From contig NZ_SACS01000017.1 in the NCBI RefSeq assembly GCF_004005945.1, positions 1 through 64,000 on the forward strand: a stretch of 64,000 nt of DNA, given 5' to 3'. Of this stretch, positions 39,821 to 49,887 are shown one piece after another (position 1 is the stretch's first letter; every line of letters starts with the position of its first letter). The notes beneath the pieces are model-generated. The model was not told the origin of the DNA and did no database searches. It was given only the letters and a program-made list of their open reading frames with translations. The DNA comes from Rheinheimera riviphila (GTDB lineage Bacteria > Pseudomonadota > Gammaproteobacteria > Enterobacterales > Alteromonadaceae). The position numbers and the translations under genes were made by a program.

Positions 39821-41545
39821 ATGAAAGCGAATTTTTGGTTTTCAGGAACAACGCTGGCGCTGACCACCTGCCTTGGCCTGGCTGCTTGTTCTGAGCCGCC
39901 AAAGCCGACTGAGCAGGCTGCTCAAACAACACCAGCGACAACACCTGCTGCTGCCGAAGCAGCACCAGCCACTGCGTTAGTTGACACTTTGATGAACCCA
40001 AAACTGGGCGAATACATCAAAACCTTATCTTCAGATGAATTTCAAGGCCGCGCGCCAGCCACCAAAGGCGAAGAGCTAACGCTGGCGTATATCTCGGAAC
40101 ACTTTAAAAAAATCGGCTTAAAGCCACTGTCCGGCGACAGTTTTGTCCAGCCAGTGCAGTTGGTACAAATTGACCCGAAAGAAGTGTCCAGCATGACGTT
40201 CACGGGCGAAAAAGCCCCGGCAGCATTTAAATATCGTGAGCAAATGTTCACCTGGACCACCCGCGTCACCGAACTTTCAGAAGTGAAAGAATCTGAGATG
40301 GTGTTTGTCGGTTACGGCATTGTGGCACCGGAATATAACTGGAACGACTACGAAGGCCTGGACGTGAAAGGCAAAACCGTGGTGATGTTCGTCAACGATC
40401 CGGGTTTTGCCACCAAGGATCCAAACCTGTTCACCGGCGACGCCATGACCTACTACGGTCGCTGGACTTACAAGTTTGAAGAAGCGGCCCGTCAAGGCGC
40501 TGCGATGGCACTCATCGTCCACGAAACTGATGCTGCCTCTTATGGCTGGCATGTGGTCGCCGGCGGTTCTGCCACCAAATTTGACCTGATCAACCCAAAT
40601 AAAAACGCCGATCGCGCCGCCATTGAAGGCTGGGTAACCACAGAATCTGCGCAGACGTTGTTTGCCGGTGTGGGTGAAACCATTGATTCAATGCGTAAAA
40701 AAGCCCTGAGCAAAGACTTCACGCCAGTGCCACTCAATATCAAAGCTTCAGTGAGCGTGAAAAACAACGTGCGTGAGCTGACCTCAGGCAACGTCGCTGG
40801 TTTTATTGAAGGCAGCGAAAAACCGGATGAAGTAGTGCTATATATGGCGCACTGGGATCACCTGGGCGTTGATTTTTCTAACCCGAAAAACAAAGTGTTT
40901 AACGGCGCAGTCGACAACGCATCCGGCACCGGCGGCCTGATGGCGCTGGCCGAATATTACGCTTCCCAGCCAAAACCAAAACGCAGCGTGGCTTTTATCG
41001 CAGTGACTGCGGAAGAACGTGGTCTGCTGGGCTCAGCCTGGTATGCGAAAAACCCATTGTTCCCACTGAATAAAACTGTCGCTGGCATCAACATGGACGT
41101 GATGAACGTCAATGGCCCGATGAAAGATATGGTGGTGGTCGGCAAGGGCAATTCTGAGCTGGAAGTGATTTTAGAGAAATACACCAAAGAGCAGGGCCGT
41201 TATATCGCGCCAGAGCCGAATCCGGCAGCAGGTTCATACTACCGCTCAGACCACTTCAACCTGGCTAAAGCCGGCGTACCAATGCTGTACGCCAAAGGCG
41301 GTGTTGATAGCGTCGCCAATGGTAAAGAATGGGGTTTGGCGCAAGCGAAAAACTTCAACACCTGTTGCTACCACAAAGTAGAAGACGAATATAACGAAAA
41401 CTGGGACTTGTCCGGCGCCCAGCAAGACTTATTCCTGTACTACCGGGTGGGTGCTGAGTTGGCGAACTCCGACGCCTGGCCGAATTGGTACGAAGGCAAA
41501 GAGTTCCGCGCAGCGCGGGATGCTTCTCGGGCTGACGTTAAGTAA
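39821..41545 (+). CDS. M28 family zinc peptidase, lipoprotein, with PA domain
   Basis: A 574-residue lipoprotein (lipobox LAAC, Cys ~23; Thr/Ala/Pro linker). A protease-associated insert (~110-290) precedes the M28 core. Zinc ligands are seen in AHWDH (~343), VDNASG (Asp), TAEERG (catalytic and ligand Glu), NMDVMN (Asp) and YRSDHF (His). Such enzymes remove N-terminal residues from peptides in the periplasm or at the cell surface. A strong terminator follows. A close paralogue is encoded at 48193-49887. Confidence 0.92.
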   Translation: MKANFWFSGTTLALTTCLGLAACSEPPKPTEQAAQTTPATTPAAAEAAPATALVDTLMNPKLGEYIKTLSSDEFQGRAPATKGEELTLAYISEHFKKIGLKPLSGDSFVQPVQLVQIDPKEVSSMTFTGEKAPAAFKYREQMFTWTTRVTELSEVKESEMVFVGYGIVAPEYNWNDYEGLDVKGKTVVMFVNDPGFATKDPNLFTGDAMTYYGRWTYKFEEAARQGAAMALIVHETDAASYGWHVVAGGSATKFDLINPNKNADRAAIEGWVTTESAQTLFAGVGETIDSMRKKALSKDFTPVPLNIKASVSVKNNVRELTSGNVAGFIEGSEKPDEVVLYMAHWDHLGVDFSNPKNKVFNGAVDNASGTGGLMALAEYYASQPKPKRSVAFIAVTAEERGLLGSAWYAKNPLFPLNKTVAGINMDVMNVNGPMKDMVVVGKGNSELEVILEKYTKEQGRYIAPEPNPAAGSYYRSDHFNLAKAGVPMLYAKGGVDSVANGKEWGLAQAKNFNTCCYHKVEDEYNENWDLSGAQQDLFLYYRVGAELANSDAWPNWYEGKEFRAARDASRADVK

Positions 41546-41663: not shown

Positions 41664-41897
41664 GTTTTAAAAGCGTTTCGCCTGTGGCGAGTATCTTTCT
41701 TTTGCTTCGCCAAAAGAAAGATACCAAAGAAAAGGCGACCCCGGATCGCTCGAAAGCCCGCAATAAAATCAACAGTTTGAGGCGCCGACAAAACTCGCGG
41801 TTCGCTACCGTCGAACCGCTCAAACAGTTGTCGGCTTAAAACCTCAAACAGTCGATTTTAAAGCGGCTCGCTTTACGGGGATGAAGAGCAAAAGCTT
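41664..41897 (+). repeat. Structured ~234-bp repeat, left copy
   Basis: Inverted relative to the copy at 42861-43093. From left to right: CGCC/GGCG mini-stem; a perfect 14-bp hairpin (GTATCTTTCTTTTG/CAAAAGAAAGATAC, 41691-41724, loop CTTCGC); a conserved block (41733-41760, GGCGACCCCGG...AAAGCC); then a nested long stem with GTTTGAGG/CCTCAAAC, GCCGACAA/TTGTCGGC (41784-41791 with 41828-41835) and GCGGTTCG/CGAACCGC (41797-41819). No coding frame of substance. The stems differ in sequence from the other copy yet pair perfectly, so the fold rather than the sequence appears to be kept. Confidence 0.85.
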
Positions 41898-41956
41898 ACT
41901 TTCGGATTATCCCCTTTGAGCGAAATTCGGAAATTCAACTTAGTTTTGTTCTGACC

Positions 41957-42598
41957 CTAAAATTTACAATTAGCATTATCTTCCAAATAAGCACCAAAGG
42001 CGTTCCAAGTTTCAAGTACTGTAACCTTCAAAAATTGAGATACAGCATCTATGGATTGACCTGCAAGTAGGGCAGTTGTATTAAACCCTTGAGTACTGGA
42101 GCCGACTTCCATTTGTATGGAGCCTTTTCCGAGAGCATGTGCTACACCATCTATGGGATTTGTATATCCAGTAAATAACCCTTTCAGGAACCCACAAAGG
42201 CCCGAGTTTCTATTAAGTATTTCTAGATGAACTCGAGCGTGTATTACAAGGTTATTCAATTGGGATATTGTGGAATTAATCTCGCCAATTACTTTTGAAC
42301 GGATACATCCAGTATAAAAATAGTTATTCGTTATAATTCTGATGTCTTTTTCAAGGTAATCGTTGCCAGTCATGCATTGTTGACATTGTCTACGTAATTC
42401 AAGTTCGATTTGTGAAATTATACCATCAAGCCTCTTTTGAACTTGCACTACATCAAGGTTACTGAGTACCTGTAATGATTGCTTTTGTTCCCCGTTTGGT
42501 TCACTAAGATGTTTTGCGGCACCGGATAAAAATTCAGCATTGAATGCTGCCAGTAATTCTCCGATCTCCTTCTGGAACTTGTCTGGATTCCAAGACAC
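41957..42598 (-). CDS. Orphan protein between structured repeats, unknown function
   Basis: A 213-residue protein with no signal peptide; largely helical in composition, with several cysteines (RRQCQQC pair ~70) and a glycine-rich, weakly hydrophobic segment (~150-190: GFLKGLFTG, VAHALGKGS, TALLAGQSID). No family is recognised. Its DNA is visibly more A+T-rich than the neighbourhood, and it is the only gene between two inverted copies of a structured repeat, which suggests it was acquired as a unit. It should be intact: start and stop are clean and composition is protein-like. Confidence 0.65.
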   Translation of the reverse strand: MSWNPDKFQKEIGELLAAFNAEFLSGAAKHLSEPNGEQKQSLQVLSNLDVVQVQKRLDGIISQIELELRRQCQQCMTGNDYLEKDIRIITNNYFYTGCIRSKVIGEINSTISQLNNLVIHARVHLEILNRNSGLCGFLKGLFTGYTNPIDGVAHALGKGSIQMEVGSSTQGFNTTALLAGQSIDAVSQFLKVTVLETWNAFGAYLEDNANCKF

Positions 42599-42860
42599 GA
42601 TACTCCTCCCCGTAGATTTAGCAGTATGTTTTCAACAGGCACGGAACCCATGACTTCAGTAATTTCTCATATTAATCGATGTTTCAACTTAAAAGTTTTT
42701 ATTCATACTTTCAACTGCCTATCAGCACCAGTTGTGACTACGGGAGTGAGAAAGGCAGTGGGATGTCTGCGAAATGCAGCAAATTATTCAGGCTTTGGCG
42801 CATGGAAATCTTCCGTGCAAAAGTCCAGATTATAAACGTTTGATTCAAGTTTGAAGTGTG

Positions 42861-43093
42861 AAGCTAAGCGCTTTTCCGCCCCTTAAAGCGAGCCGGATGT
42901 TTGGCCGGTTTTGAGGTTTTAAAACTGCGCACTGTTTGAGCGGTTCGACGTTAGCGAACCGCGAGTTTGCGCAGTTGCCTCAAAATCGAGACAAACTTCC
43001 GGGCTTTCGAGCGATCCGGGGTCGCCTTTTGTTGGTTACTTATTTTGGCGAAGCAAAATAAGTAACTCGCCATCGGCGAAACGCTTTTTAAAC
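42861..43093 (-). repeat. Structured ~233-bp repeat, right copy (inverted)
   Basis: Read on the minus strand it matches the left copy block by block. The first hairpin is GTTACTTATTTTG/CAAAATAAGTAAC (43035-43066, same CTTCGC loop on the minus strand), the shared GGCGACCCCGG...AAAGCC block follows, then nested stems TTTTGAGG/CCTCAAAA, AACTGCGCA/TGCGCAGTT and the shared GCGGTTCG/CGAACCGC tip. Unpaired and tip segments are conserved; helical segments have changed on both strands together. Confidence 0.85.
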
Positions 43094-48075: not shown

Positions 48076-48171
48076 GGACTTGCCTTCGGCCGAGTCCACC
48101 CTACTATTTGAATATAAACCATTTTCGGAAATTACAACGGTAGGGCGTACTCACCCGCAGGGTAGTACGCC
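48076..48171. repeat. Two REP-like hairpins between subunit 3 and the second M28 gene
   Basis: GGACT/AGTCC (48076-48099 region) and GGCGTACT/AGTACGCC (48144-48151 with 48164-48171) form two adjacent stem-loops in a 131-bp gap. The G/C-rich GTAGGGCG...CGCC wording is typical of dispersed REP-like sequences. Confidence 0.45.
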
Positions 48172-48192
48172 AACCCAACCACGGATCCCAGC

Positions 48193-49887
48193 ATGAAAAA
48201 ACCATTGTTTCCGCGCAACTGGCAGTTACTGATGACAGCTTTAGCGCTGTCGCCATGTATTCAGGCTGCCAATGCTCTACCAGAACAACCGCAACTACAA
48301 CAAACCGAATTCAGCAGCAACTTCGGTAAATATTTCAAAGAAGTCGCTTCCGACGAGCTACAAGGCCGGGCACCGGCGACCGTCGGCGAAGAGCGCACTG
48401 TCGCTTATATCGAGCAGAATTTTAAACGGTTGGGGCTAACGCCTTTTGCCAACAACAGTTATCGCCAGGCGGTGCCGGTGGTGCAGATTGATCCGGTGGC
48501 GGTGTCGGCTTTGACATTCAGTGGCGACAAACTGCCAACAAGCCTGGCTTATAAAACGCAAATGATGGCGTGGTCGACGCGGATGTTGCCGCAAATTGAA
48601 GTCAAAGACAGCGAACTGGTGTTTGTCGGTTACGGCATCGTCGCGCCGGAATATGGCTGGAATGACTATAAAAATATCGACGTCAAAGGCAAAACCGTGG
48701 TGATGTTTGTCAACGATCCGGGTTTTGCTACCGGCGATCCCAAGCTCTTTACCGGCAAAGCCATGACTTATTACGGTCGCTGGACTTACAAGTTTGAAGA
48801 AGCGGCACGCCAGGGCGCGGCGATGGCGCTGATCGTTCATGAGACTGACGCTGCAGCTTATGGCTGGAATGTGGTGGCGGGCACCAGTCCGATCCGCTTT
48901 GAGCTGGCTGATCCGAATAAAAACCAACACAAAGCCGCAGTAGAAGGTTGGGTCACCACTGAGTCTGCGACGCAGATTTTTGCCGCCTCCAATCAAACTA
49001 TTGATTCGATGCGTAAAAAAGCGCTGGACAAAAACTTCCAGCCCTTTGTTTTAGGCGGCAAAGCCAATATCAGTATCAAAAACCAGATCCGCGAAATCGA
49101 TTCCAGTAACGTGATTGGTTATATCAAAGGCAGCAAACAGCCGGATGAGCTGGTGCTTTATATGGCGCACTGGGATCATTTTGGCCTCGATTTCAGCCGT
49201 AAAGACGACAAAATTTTTAATGGCGCGCAGGATAATGCCGGTGGTATCGCTGGTTTATTGGCGCTGGCCGAGAAGTTTCAACAAGGCGAAAAACCCGAGC
49301 GCTCGGTGGCCTTTATTGCAGTGACCGCTGAAGAGCGTGGCATGCTCGGTTCACGCTGGTACGCTGCCAACCCGTTGTTACCGCTAAATAAAACCGTTGC
49401 CGGGATTAACATGGATGTGATGAATGTCTATGGTCCGATGCGCGATGTGCAGGTCTTCGGTTATGGCGCTTCTGAATTGGAGCCGATGCTGCATAAATAC
49501 GCCAAGGCGCAAGGCCGCTATATCGGGCCTGAGCCAACGCCGGAAGATGGTTTTTATTATCGCTCAGACCATTTTCAGTTAGCCCGTTACGGCGTACCGA
49601 TGTTGTATGCGCGCGGCGGCGTCGATAGTTTTGCTCATGGCAAAGATTGGGGCCTGGCGCAGCGGCGTGATTACACCAGTAACTACTATCACAAAGTGAA
49701 TGATGAATTTAGCCCTGCTTGGGACTTACGTGGTTCACAGCAGGATTTGTGGTTGTATTATCAGGTGGGGCAGGAGTTGGCCAATTCCACGCTCTGGCCA
49801 AACTGGTATGCCGGCAAAGAGTTTAAAGCAGCGCGCGATGCGTCACGGGCCCTGTTACCGGATCCATCACCGGACAGCGAAAAATGA
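48193..49887 (+). CDS. M28 family zinc peptidase, exported, paralogue of 39821-41545
   Basis: A 564-residue product with a standard signal peptide (ending IQAAN) rather than the lipobox of its paralogue. The core is nearly co-linear with that protein: the ELQGRAPAT start, GKTVVMFVNDPGFAT, YYGRWTYKFEEAARQGAAMAL, zinc motifs AHWDH, QDNAGG, TAEERG, NMDVMN, YRSDHF. It should be a soluble periplasmic or secreted aminopeptidase. It follows the 3-keto-sugar operon by 131 nt, probably as a separate transcript. Confidence 0.92.
   Translation: MKKPLFPRNWQLLMTALALSPCIQAANALPEQPQLQQTEFSSNFGKYFKEVASDELQGRAPATVGEERTVAYIEQNFKRLGLTPFANNSYRQAVPVVQIDPVAVSALTFSGDKLPTSLAYKTQMMAWSTRMLPQIEVKDSELVFVGYGIVAPEYGWNDYKNIDVKGKTVVMFVNDPGFATGDPKLFTGKAMTYYGRWTYKFEEAARQGAAMALIVHETDAAAYGWNVVAGTSPIRFELADPNKNQHKAAVEGWVTTESATQIFAASNQTIDSMRKKALDKNFQPFVLGGKANISIKNQIREIDSSNVIGYIKGSKQPDELVLYMAHWDHFGLDFSRKDDKIFNGAQDNAGGIAGLLALAEKFQQGEKPERSVAFIAVTAEERGMLGSRWYAANPLLPLNKTVAGINMDVMNVYGPMRDVQVFGYGASELEPMLHKYAKAQGRYIGPEPTPEDGFYYRSDHFQLARYGVPMLYARGGVDSFAHGKDWGLAQRRDYTSNYYHKVNDEFSPAWDLRGSQQDLWLYYQVGQELANSTLWPNWYAGKEFKAARDASRALLPDPSPDSEK

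Follow-up and report, generated by a model that had tools for sequence, protein, structure and literature searches.

Structure of the unit in the window

What is the pair of inverted, folded repeats at 41664-43093 of the window (the whole 64,000-nucleotide stretch of Rheinheimera riviphila DNA that was analysed), and does its fold act in DNA or in RNA? According to both a reading of the sequence and a repeat search of the window, two inverted copies face inward around a 213-aa orphan ORF (41957..42598, minus strand). The repeat search recovered four pairs of inverted arms (left/right: 41664-41702/43055-43093, 41722-41783/42977-43038, 41791-41841/42918-42968, and 41864-41889/42870-42895), at the place where the sequence-only reading had put the pair.

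Read from the outside in, an element has a terminus (TTTTAAAA-like, then GCGTTTCGCC), which is followed by the outer hairpin H1 and by a conserved core; next come H2, the long main hairpin, whose loops are large and asymmetric, and lastly the inner box. The left, A-type element spans 41665..41907 on the plus strand and is matched by covariance model R1 at 41733-41880 with 156.9 bits. It comprises the outer terminus TTTTAAAA plus GCGTTTCGCC (41665..41682), H1 with a perfect, 100% complementary 14-bp stem (41691..41724), the core GGCGACCCCGG...CGAAAGCCCG (41734..41760), H2 with covarying stems (41751..41870), and the inner box (41875..41907), which follows a GGGG run and is common to the orthologous unit in genome G013; all of these lie on the plus strand. 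The H2 loops AACTCG, GCTANCGTC, CTCARACA, TTAAAACCT, and CGGCTCG are invariant or nearly invariant. The right, B-type element is inverted with respect to the left one (42866..43093, minus strand; R1 match at 42879-43027, 145.5 bits) and carries its H2 at 42889..43009, H1 with a 13-bp stem at 43035..43066, and the outer terminus GGCGAAACGC plus TTTTTAAAC at 43075..43093, likewise on the minus strand. The unit also reaches outward via the TTTTAAAA/GCG terminus and inward via the box past GGGG. Judged from another locus, a TTTAAA-like target or duplication may be present at the left outer terminus.

The helices that differ between the two copies had been said to pair perfectly in both, and every stem named was confirmed. 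Thus, GTATCTTTCTTTTG/CAAAAGAAAGATAC at 41691-41724 and GTTACTTATTTTG/CAAAATAAGTAAC at 43035-43066 pair perfectly, as do the stems GCCGACAA/TTGTCGGC and AACTGCGCA/TGCGCAGTT of the window pair.

As for the surroundings, two peptidase-like genes, apparent paralogues, lie at 39821-41545 and 48193-49887 of the window; DNA identity is ~69% between either of them and the other's counterpart in G013. A further palindrome between genes (GTAGGGCGTACTCACCCGAAGGGTAGTACGCC-like) is found repeatedly close to units, at ~4200 in L017, ~4700 in L058, and ~48110-48270 in the window.

Fold and covariation

Both window copies fold far better than shuffled sequences (z −6.9 and −6.3, with 0 of 200 shuffles as good). 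For the genus, 65 near-full copies yielded 62 core references (three were skipped by name), 49 of which were aligned over the inner core. In these 49 copies 95.7% of stem cells pair, compared with 75.8% in shuffles, and pairing drops to about 45% when the partner is slid by one column. Both-sided change is seen in 22 of 32 consensus pairs, the number of both-sided cells is 326 (95 in shuffles), and the covariation score equals 0.532, against 0.173 in shuffles and 0.07-0.16 with the partner slid by 1-3 columns. Across the same alignment, the unpaired blocks CGAAA, AACTC, GCTA, CTCA, ACA, and TTAAAACCT show little or no variation. Because pairing and covariation in the 49 copies exceed those of shuffles, the two-copy comparison from which the sequence-only reading had proposed a fold under selection, its loops conserved and its stems covarying, holds in the larger family; the other copies keep their pairing rather than accumulate unpaired stem changes.

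Strings of small hairpins (e.g., CAACGCTTGCGTTG-AACAGCTTTAGCTG-GCCCCGAAGGGG) occur inside elements L301, L302, L305, L308, L309, L311, and L312 and at 6151-6217 of L017, as if hairpin modules inserted into unpaired stretches of the element.

Distribution of the element

According to a DNA search of 79 genomes, the window's genus carries the element throughout (22 of 22 genomes, counting the one from which the window comes); none of 26 genomes from other genera of the family has it, and of the order's 31 remaining genomes 2 give weak matches only. Since no more than 9 candidates were scored in each genome, the copy counts of this search are lower bounds. The H2 loops were also written as a DNA pattern, a slightly stricter form of which matched none of 100 shuffled versions of the window; scanned over 84,980 species genomes, the pattern gave at least 120 stretches. 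Among the matches listed, at least 39 belong to Rheinheimera, at least 32 to Chromobacterium, at least 11 to Vogesella, at least 7 each to Aquitalea and Pseudogulbenkiania, at least 6 to Chitinibacter, at least 5 to Craterilacuibacter, at least 1 to Deefgea, at least 2 each to another Neisseriaceae MAG and betaproteobacterium L13, and at least 8 to gammaproteobacterial MAGs. A looser pattern matches 2 of 398 genomes sampled phylum-wide, both in the window's genus, and the covariance model run over the order matches 3 of 394 genomes, all of that genus, with 7 candidates scored per genome and misses likely.

Presence is patchy in Rheinheimera and Neisseriales, and many Neisseriales copies match in core and H2 and have an H1 of different sequence. 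By the covariance model, genomes carry from 2 to 24 copies, 124 in 11 genomes. Regarding mobile carriers, neither a plasmid collection (two queries) nor a phage collection (one query) has a match to the element, and viral contigs hold 3 stretches with its DNA pattern. The literature search, with most subscription journals outside its coverage, returned no account of the element among the matches listed. The elements are apparently an undescribed family of about 230 bases, common to Rheinheimera and Chromobacterium-type bacteria.

Arrangement and orientation of copies

A unit may be a solo element, a short pair facing inward, or a pair that encloses cargo, from one gene to a few. The 124 copies found by the covariance model in 11 genomes form 26 neighbouring pairs within 3 kb; of these, 23 converge, 2 are in ++ and 1 in −− orientation, and none diverge (binomial p 1.6e-11 versus one quarter, a test that assumes independent orientation, yet some sites are orthologous between genomes). 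Only 46 of the 124 copies, however, stand in convergent pairs. A looser nhmmer set of fetched loci shows 52 of 67 neighbours within 3 kb converging, 12 on the same strand, and 3 divergent. Gaps in convergent pairs are about 66-246 bp, or about 0.5-3.5 kb with cargo. A motif search for a partner within 2.5 kb of 15 solo copies found none.

Partner elements tend to be unlike each other, most clearly in short units. The comparison covers 52 units and counts several loci twice, e.g., L057/L188, L059/L127, and L075/L150 (same genomes in two collections); in it, the partners of short units (gap <260 bp, 27 in all) are less alike than same-genome non-partners in 22 of the 24 with a comparison. For longer units partner identity is lower in 15, equal in 2, and higher in 6 of 23, and the rule is less clear. 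Such unlikeness may mean that the left and right ends are distinct, or that long perfect palindromes are selected against.

At three loci (L212 4225-5185, L225 1449-2305, and L161 4953-5872) three elements stand head to tail, spaced roughly regularly. As for replication, all 9 solo copies on the G015 chromosome (L281, L301-L308) run with the fork according to GC skew, but in the larger set 24 of 41 do so, or 19 of 29 at |skew| above 0.02, which amounts to no general replication-strand bias of solo copies; a lagging-strand reading was dropped.

Cargo genes

The 30 scanned proteins between neighbouring elements comprise those of 29 of the 43 listed ORFs and of L017:5768-6049, 7 of them lying between same-strand neighbours rather than in convergent pairs. 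Proteins between neighbouring elements include Phd/YefM, ParE, DUF2971, AAA_13, NACHT, HEPN, UDG, and MerR proteins, as well as a beta-flower protein, a zinc ribbon protein with ankyrin, and orphans. The scanned ParE toxins lie between same-strand neighbours, and Phd is found in such a position as well as in a convergent pair. PADLOC candidates among the cargo are the DUF2971 protein (PDC-S31) and the AAA_13 protein (PDC-S06). The 213-aa protein of the window has no family over the cut-off and is distantly related to cargo of L056, a unit at another locus in G013 (22% identity, E 5e-6); a search of viral contigs for its relatives gave none. That the elements often bracket small swappable genes, e.g., toxin-antitoxin and phage-defence genes, suggests a non-autonomous gene-cassette system.

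In one IMG/VR contig a pair of elements (L239 1232-4381) encloses a 769-aa NACHT protein with no match in PADLOC, possibly the product of a defence gene.

Exchange and insertion at orthologous sites

Orthologous sites hold different contents. At the site of the window's unit, G013 (L059) has a DUF2971 gene where the window has the 213-aa orphan; its B-type element is nearly the same, its A-type element has a different tip and H1, and similarity ends just inside the inner boxes. L017/L058 and L019/L060 have flank, H1, and core in common, and differ in H2 and beyond. In L075/L084 the flanks, one nearly whole element, and H1 of the other are common, with cargo being HEPN in one and MerR in the other. 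The exchange breakpoints fall in or beside the core in three orthologous comparisons (L017/L058, L019/L060, and one end of L075/L084).

Clean empty sites, which the sequence-only reading had proposed to look for, were found for one unit. In G015 about 1.1 kb, containing one element, a 155-aa ORF, and more, stands between conserved flanks and is absent in 11 of 11 other genomes; on the right it ends without an element. A search of 21 genomes gave no empty site for the window's own unit, whose right flank was present only in G013 and in one weak hit. Ten orthologous sites of the L089 locus comprise one with a full element (L280), three with a partial one (L272, L275, and L276), and six with none by the model, two of which (L273 and L279) show short end remnants by eye. 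There, L278 reads GCCTTTAAATGTCG where L276 reads GCCTTTAAAAGCGTTT...GGCGAAACCGCTTTAAATGTCG, and the unit remnant in L276 is flanked on both sides by TTTAAA. Where the sequence is AT-rich, the duplication at insertion is ambiguous.

Search for a mobilising enzyme

No transposase or recombinase is present among the 30 proteins between neighbouring elements. In a scan of 148 of the 252 neighbouring proteins, from ORFs of up to 480 aa, no family occurs in more than 3 of the 148, and no recombinase is among the 25 of 124 families listed. Of 14 genomes 11 have Y1 transposase genes, and the window's own genome also has them; at this sensitivity the genes are absent in the other 3 of the 14 (G003, G009, and G019, the last with 24 copies of the element). 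A RAYT/Y1 reading was rejected, with no element beside any Y1 gene examined (0 of 23 Y1_Tnp loci, with flanks up to about 1.5 kb, some shorter). In the window's genome, numerous copies of the short repeat AAAAAGCAAGACCTGACCCTATCCATTTGCT, perhaps a REP family belonging to the gene, come after a Y1 transposase-like gene (L053 1-1720).

Origin of the paired elements

The explanation preferred here, judged about as probable as not, is that the pair forms a gene-cassette unit with structured DNA ends, inserted by an enzyme that acts in trans on the folded strand and changing its cargo by homologous recombination. Observed are the fold with its covariation and strict Watson-Crick pairing, the convergent layout, the dissimilar partners of short pairs, the differing cargo at orthologous sites, and one occupied/empty site; the mode of movement is inferred. 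Each end would be a hairpin array (terminus, H1, core, H2, and inner box) that takes up its fold in single-stranded DNA, with the conserved unpaired motifs as putative recognition sites. Insertion would take place at TTTAAA-like sites and would depend on a trans-acting enzyme that reads the folded single strand. Cargo between pre-existing ends would also be swapped, probably by homologous recombination between elements. Such recombination is likely to exchange cargo in addition to the enzyme; the enzyme may no longer be active, and recombination may be the sole process at work today.

A reading in which the elements are portable homology arms, i.e., old repeats with no active enzyme whose contents are swapped by natural transformation and homologous recombination much as in the minimal mobile elements of Neisseria, is rather unlikely. 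It agrees with exchange breakpoints in the most conserved blocks (core and inner box), with the failure to find an enzyme among the proteins scanned, and with the fact that many Neisseriales are competent, but leaves unexplained the strict covariation with conserved loops, the insertion at a clean site, and the convergent rule.

The nature of the fold bears on a second alternative, namely a structured RNA (a 3'-UTR, terminator, or ncRNA module) that occurs by chance as inverted pairs. It is supported by strong folding, long covarying helices, intergenic position, and the fact that 26 of 41 solo copies have their upstream gene in the same sense. Wobble pairs, however, are nearly absent. The 49 genus copies have G-U in 20 of 1494 standard pairs (1.3%), with 12 C-A cells and 55 cells of other mismatches, and 24 Neisseriales copies have it in 9 of 590 (1.5%), with 11 C-A and 22 other mismatches (28 cores were extracted and 23 more skipped by pattern or length). 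The control, 6S RNA of the same genus under the Rfam structure (five sequences of one RNA family), has 40 G-U of 228 (17.5%), 5 C-A, and 20 other mismatches. C-A was counted because it is G-U on the other strand, and in the element G-U is about as rare as this complement. The stems thus appear to be kept Watson-Crick, with little sign that either strand tolerates wobble, as a DNA hairpin would lead one to expect, and the near absence of wobble pairs favours a fold at the DNA level. An RNA is also at odds with inverted pairs that place the sequence on both strands and with the Rfam search, in which nothing in the window reaches a gathering score and all 9 hits with E of 10 or less fall short of theirs; the sequence-only reading had likewise known no named family. 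Such an RNA is therefore improbable. Among the roles that reading had offered, the structured ncRNA or terminator is not supported, given this wobble share and the convergent pairs, often around cargo, while the substrate of a transposase or recombinase fits best.

It is more improbable still that the fold is mere mutational upkeep, i.e., that template switching in hairpins holds the arms in perfect complementarity without selection on function: this accounts for paired changes without wobble intermediates, for a hairpin tip that differs as a whole module between the window's A-type element and its orthologue, and for whole hairpin strings inside some copies, but not for asymmetric unpaired motifs that are invariant or nearly so in the 49 genus copies and recognisable in Neisseriales, which need selection or very recent transfer.

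Taken as a gene-cassette system with structured DNA ends, the family links DNA hairpin repeats, gene cassettes, and the turnover of defence genes, which are usually separate subjects. With a fold so constrained, a protein that binds or cleaves it should be findable. The cassettes offer a handle for finding uncharacterised defence genes, and wobble-pair counting suggests itself as a possible test to tell DNA folds from RNA folds.

Comparison with known systems

REP sequences (PMC3733652) are GTAG- and CGTC-tagged palindromes of 20-40 bp that stand solo or as inverted dimers, heterodimers being common, and no dedicated transposase is reported there for the CGTC class. The element is similar in being chromosomal, intergenic, and palindromic, solo or in inverted dimers, with hairpins at the DNA level, and the convergence of 23 of 26 neighbours corresponds to the inverted dimers of REPINs. 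It differs from the 20-40 bp REP in its length of about 230 nt, several hairpins, and long conserved loops, in pairs that often enclose genes, and in its low copy number (2-24 per genome by the covariance model). CGTC lies inside the H2 tip loop and GTAG in some inner boxes, neither at the end where a REPIN has its tag, and the RAYT gene flanked by the repeat has no counterpart in the 23 Y1_Tnp loci.

In the minimal mobile elements of Neisseria, one chromosomal site can hold different genes, which strains can exchange. Orthologous sites of the element hold different genes in the same way, but the exchanged stretch is here bounded by a dedicated structured element.

MICs and MITEs are non-autonomous units with inverted ends and no transposase, MICs having passenger genes. 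The window unit, too, consists of inverted ends and a passenger gene without a transposase. Its ends, however, are large covarying folds rather than the short TIRs of a known IS. The termini read GCGTTTCGCC in a TTTAAA context, and in a comparison made without ISfinder no parent IS was found; no known Rfam or IS/MITE family that would account for the element, and so undo the sequence-only reading, was found either.

In integrons, the attC site of a cassette folds as a single strand with unpaired recognition bases, and cassettes carry toxin-antitoxin, defence, and orphan genes. The fold of the element, its asymmetric conserved loops, and its lack of wobble would agree with a substrate of the folded-single-strand kind, as far as sequence can tell, and its cargo includes the same three sorts of genes. 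Unlike integron sites, those of the element are two per cassette, inverted, and dispersed rather than in a head-to-tail array, and no integrase is found among the 30 enclosed proteins or the 25 of 124 neighbour families listed. A second integron-like capture and swap system, with two inverted, unlike sites that fold in single-stranded DNA and a putative recombinase, common to Rheinheimera and Neisseriales, is a tentative and somewhat unlikely proposal. Although it departs from REPINs and integrons in a defining feature of each, the element resembles REPINs in layout, MICs in its passengers, and attC sites in its folding.
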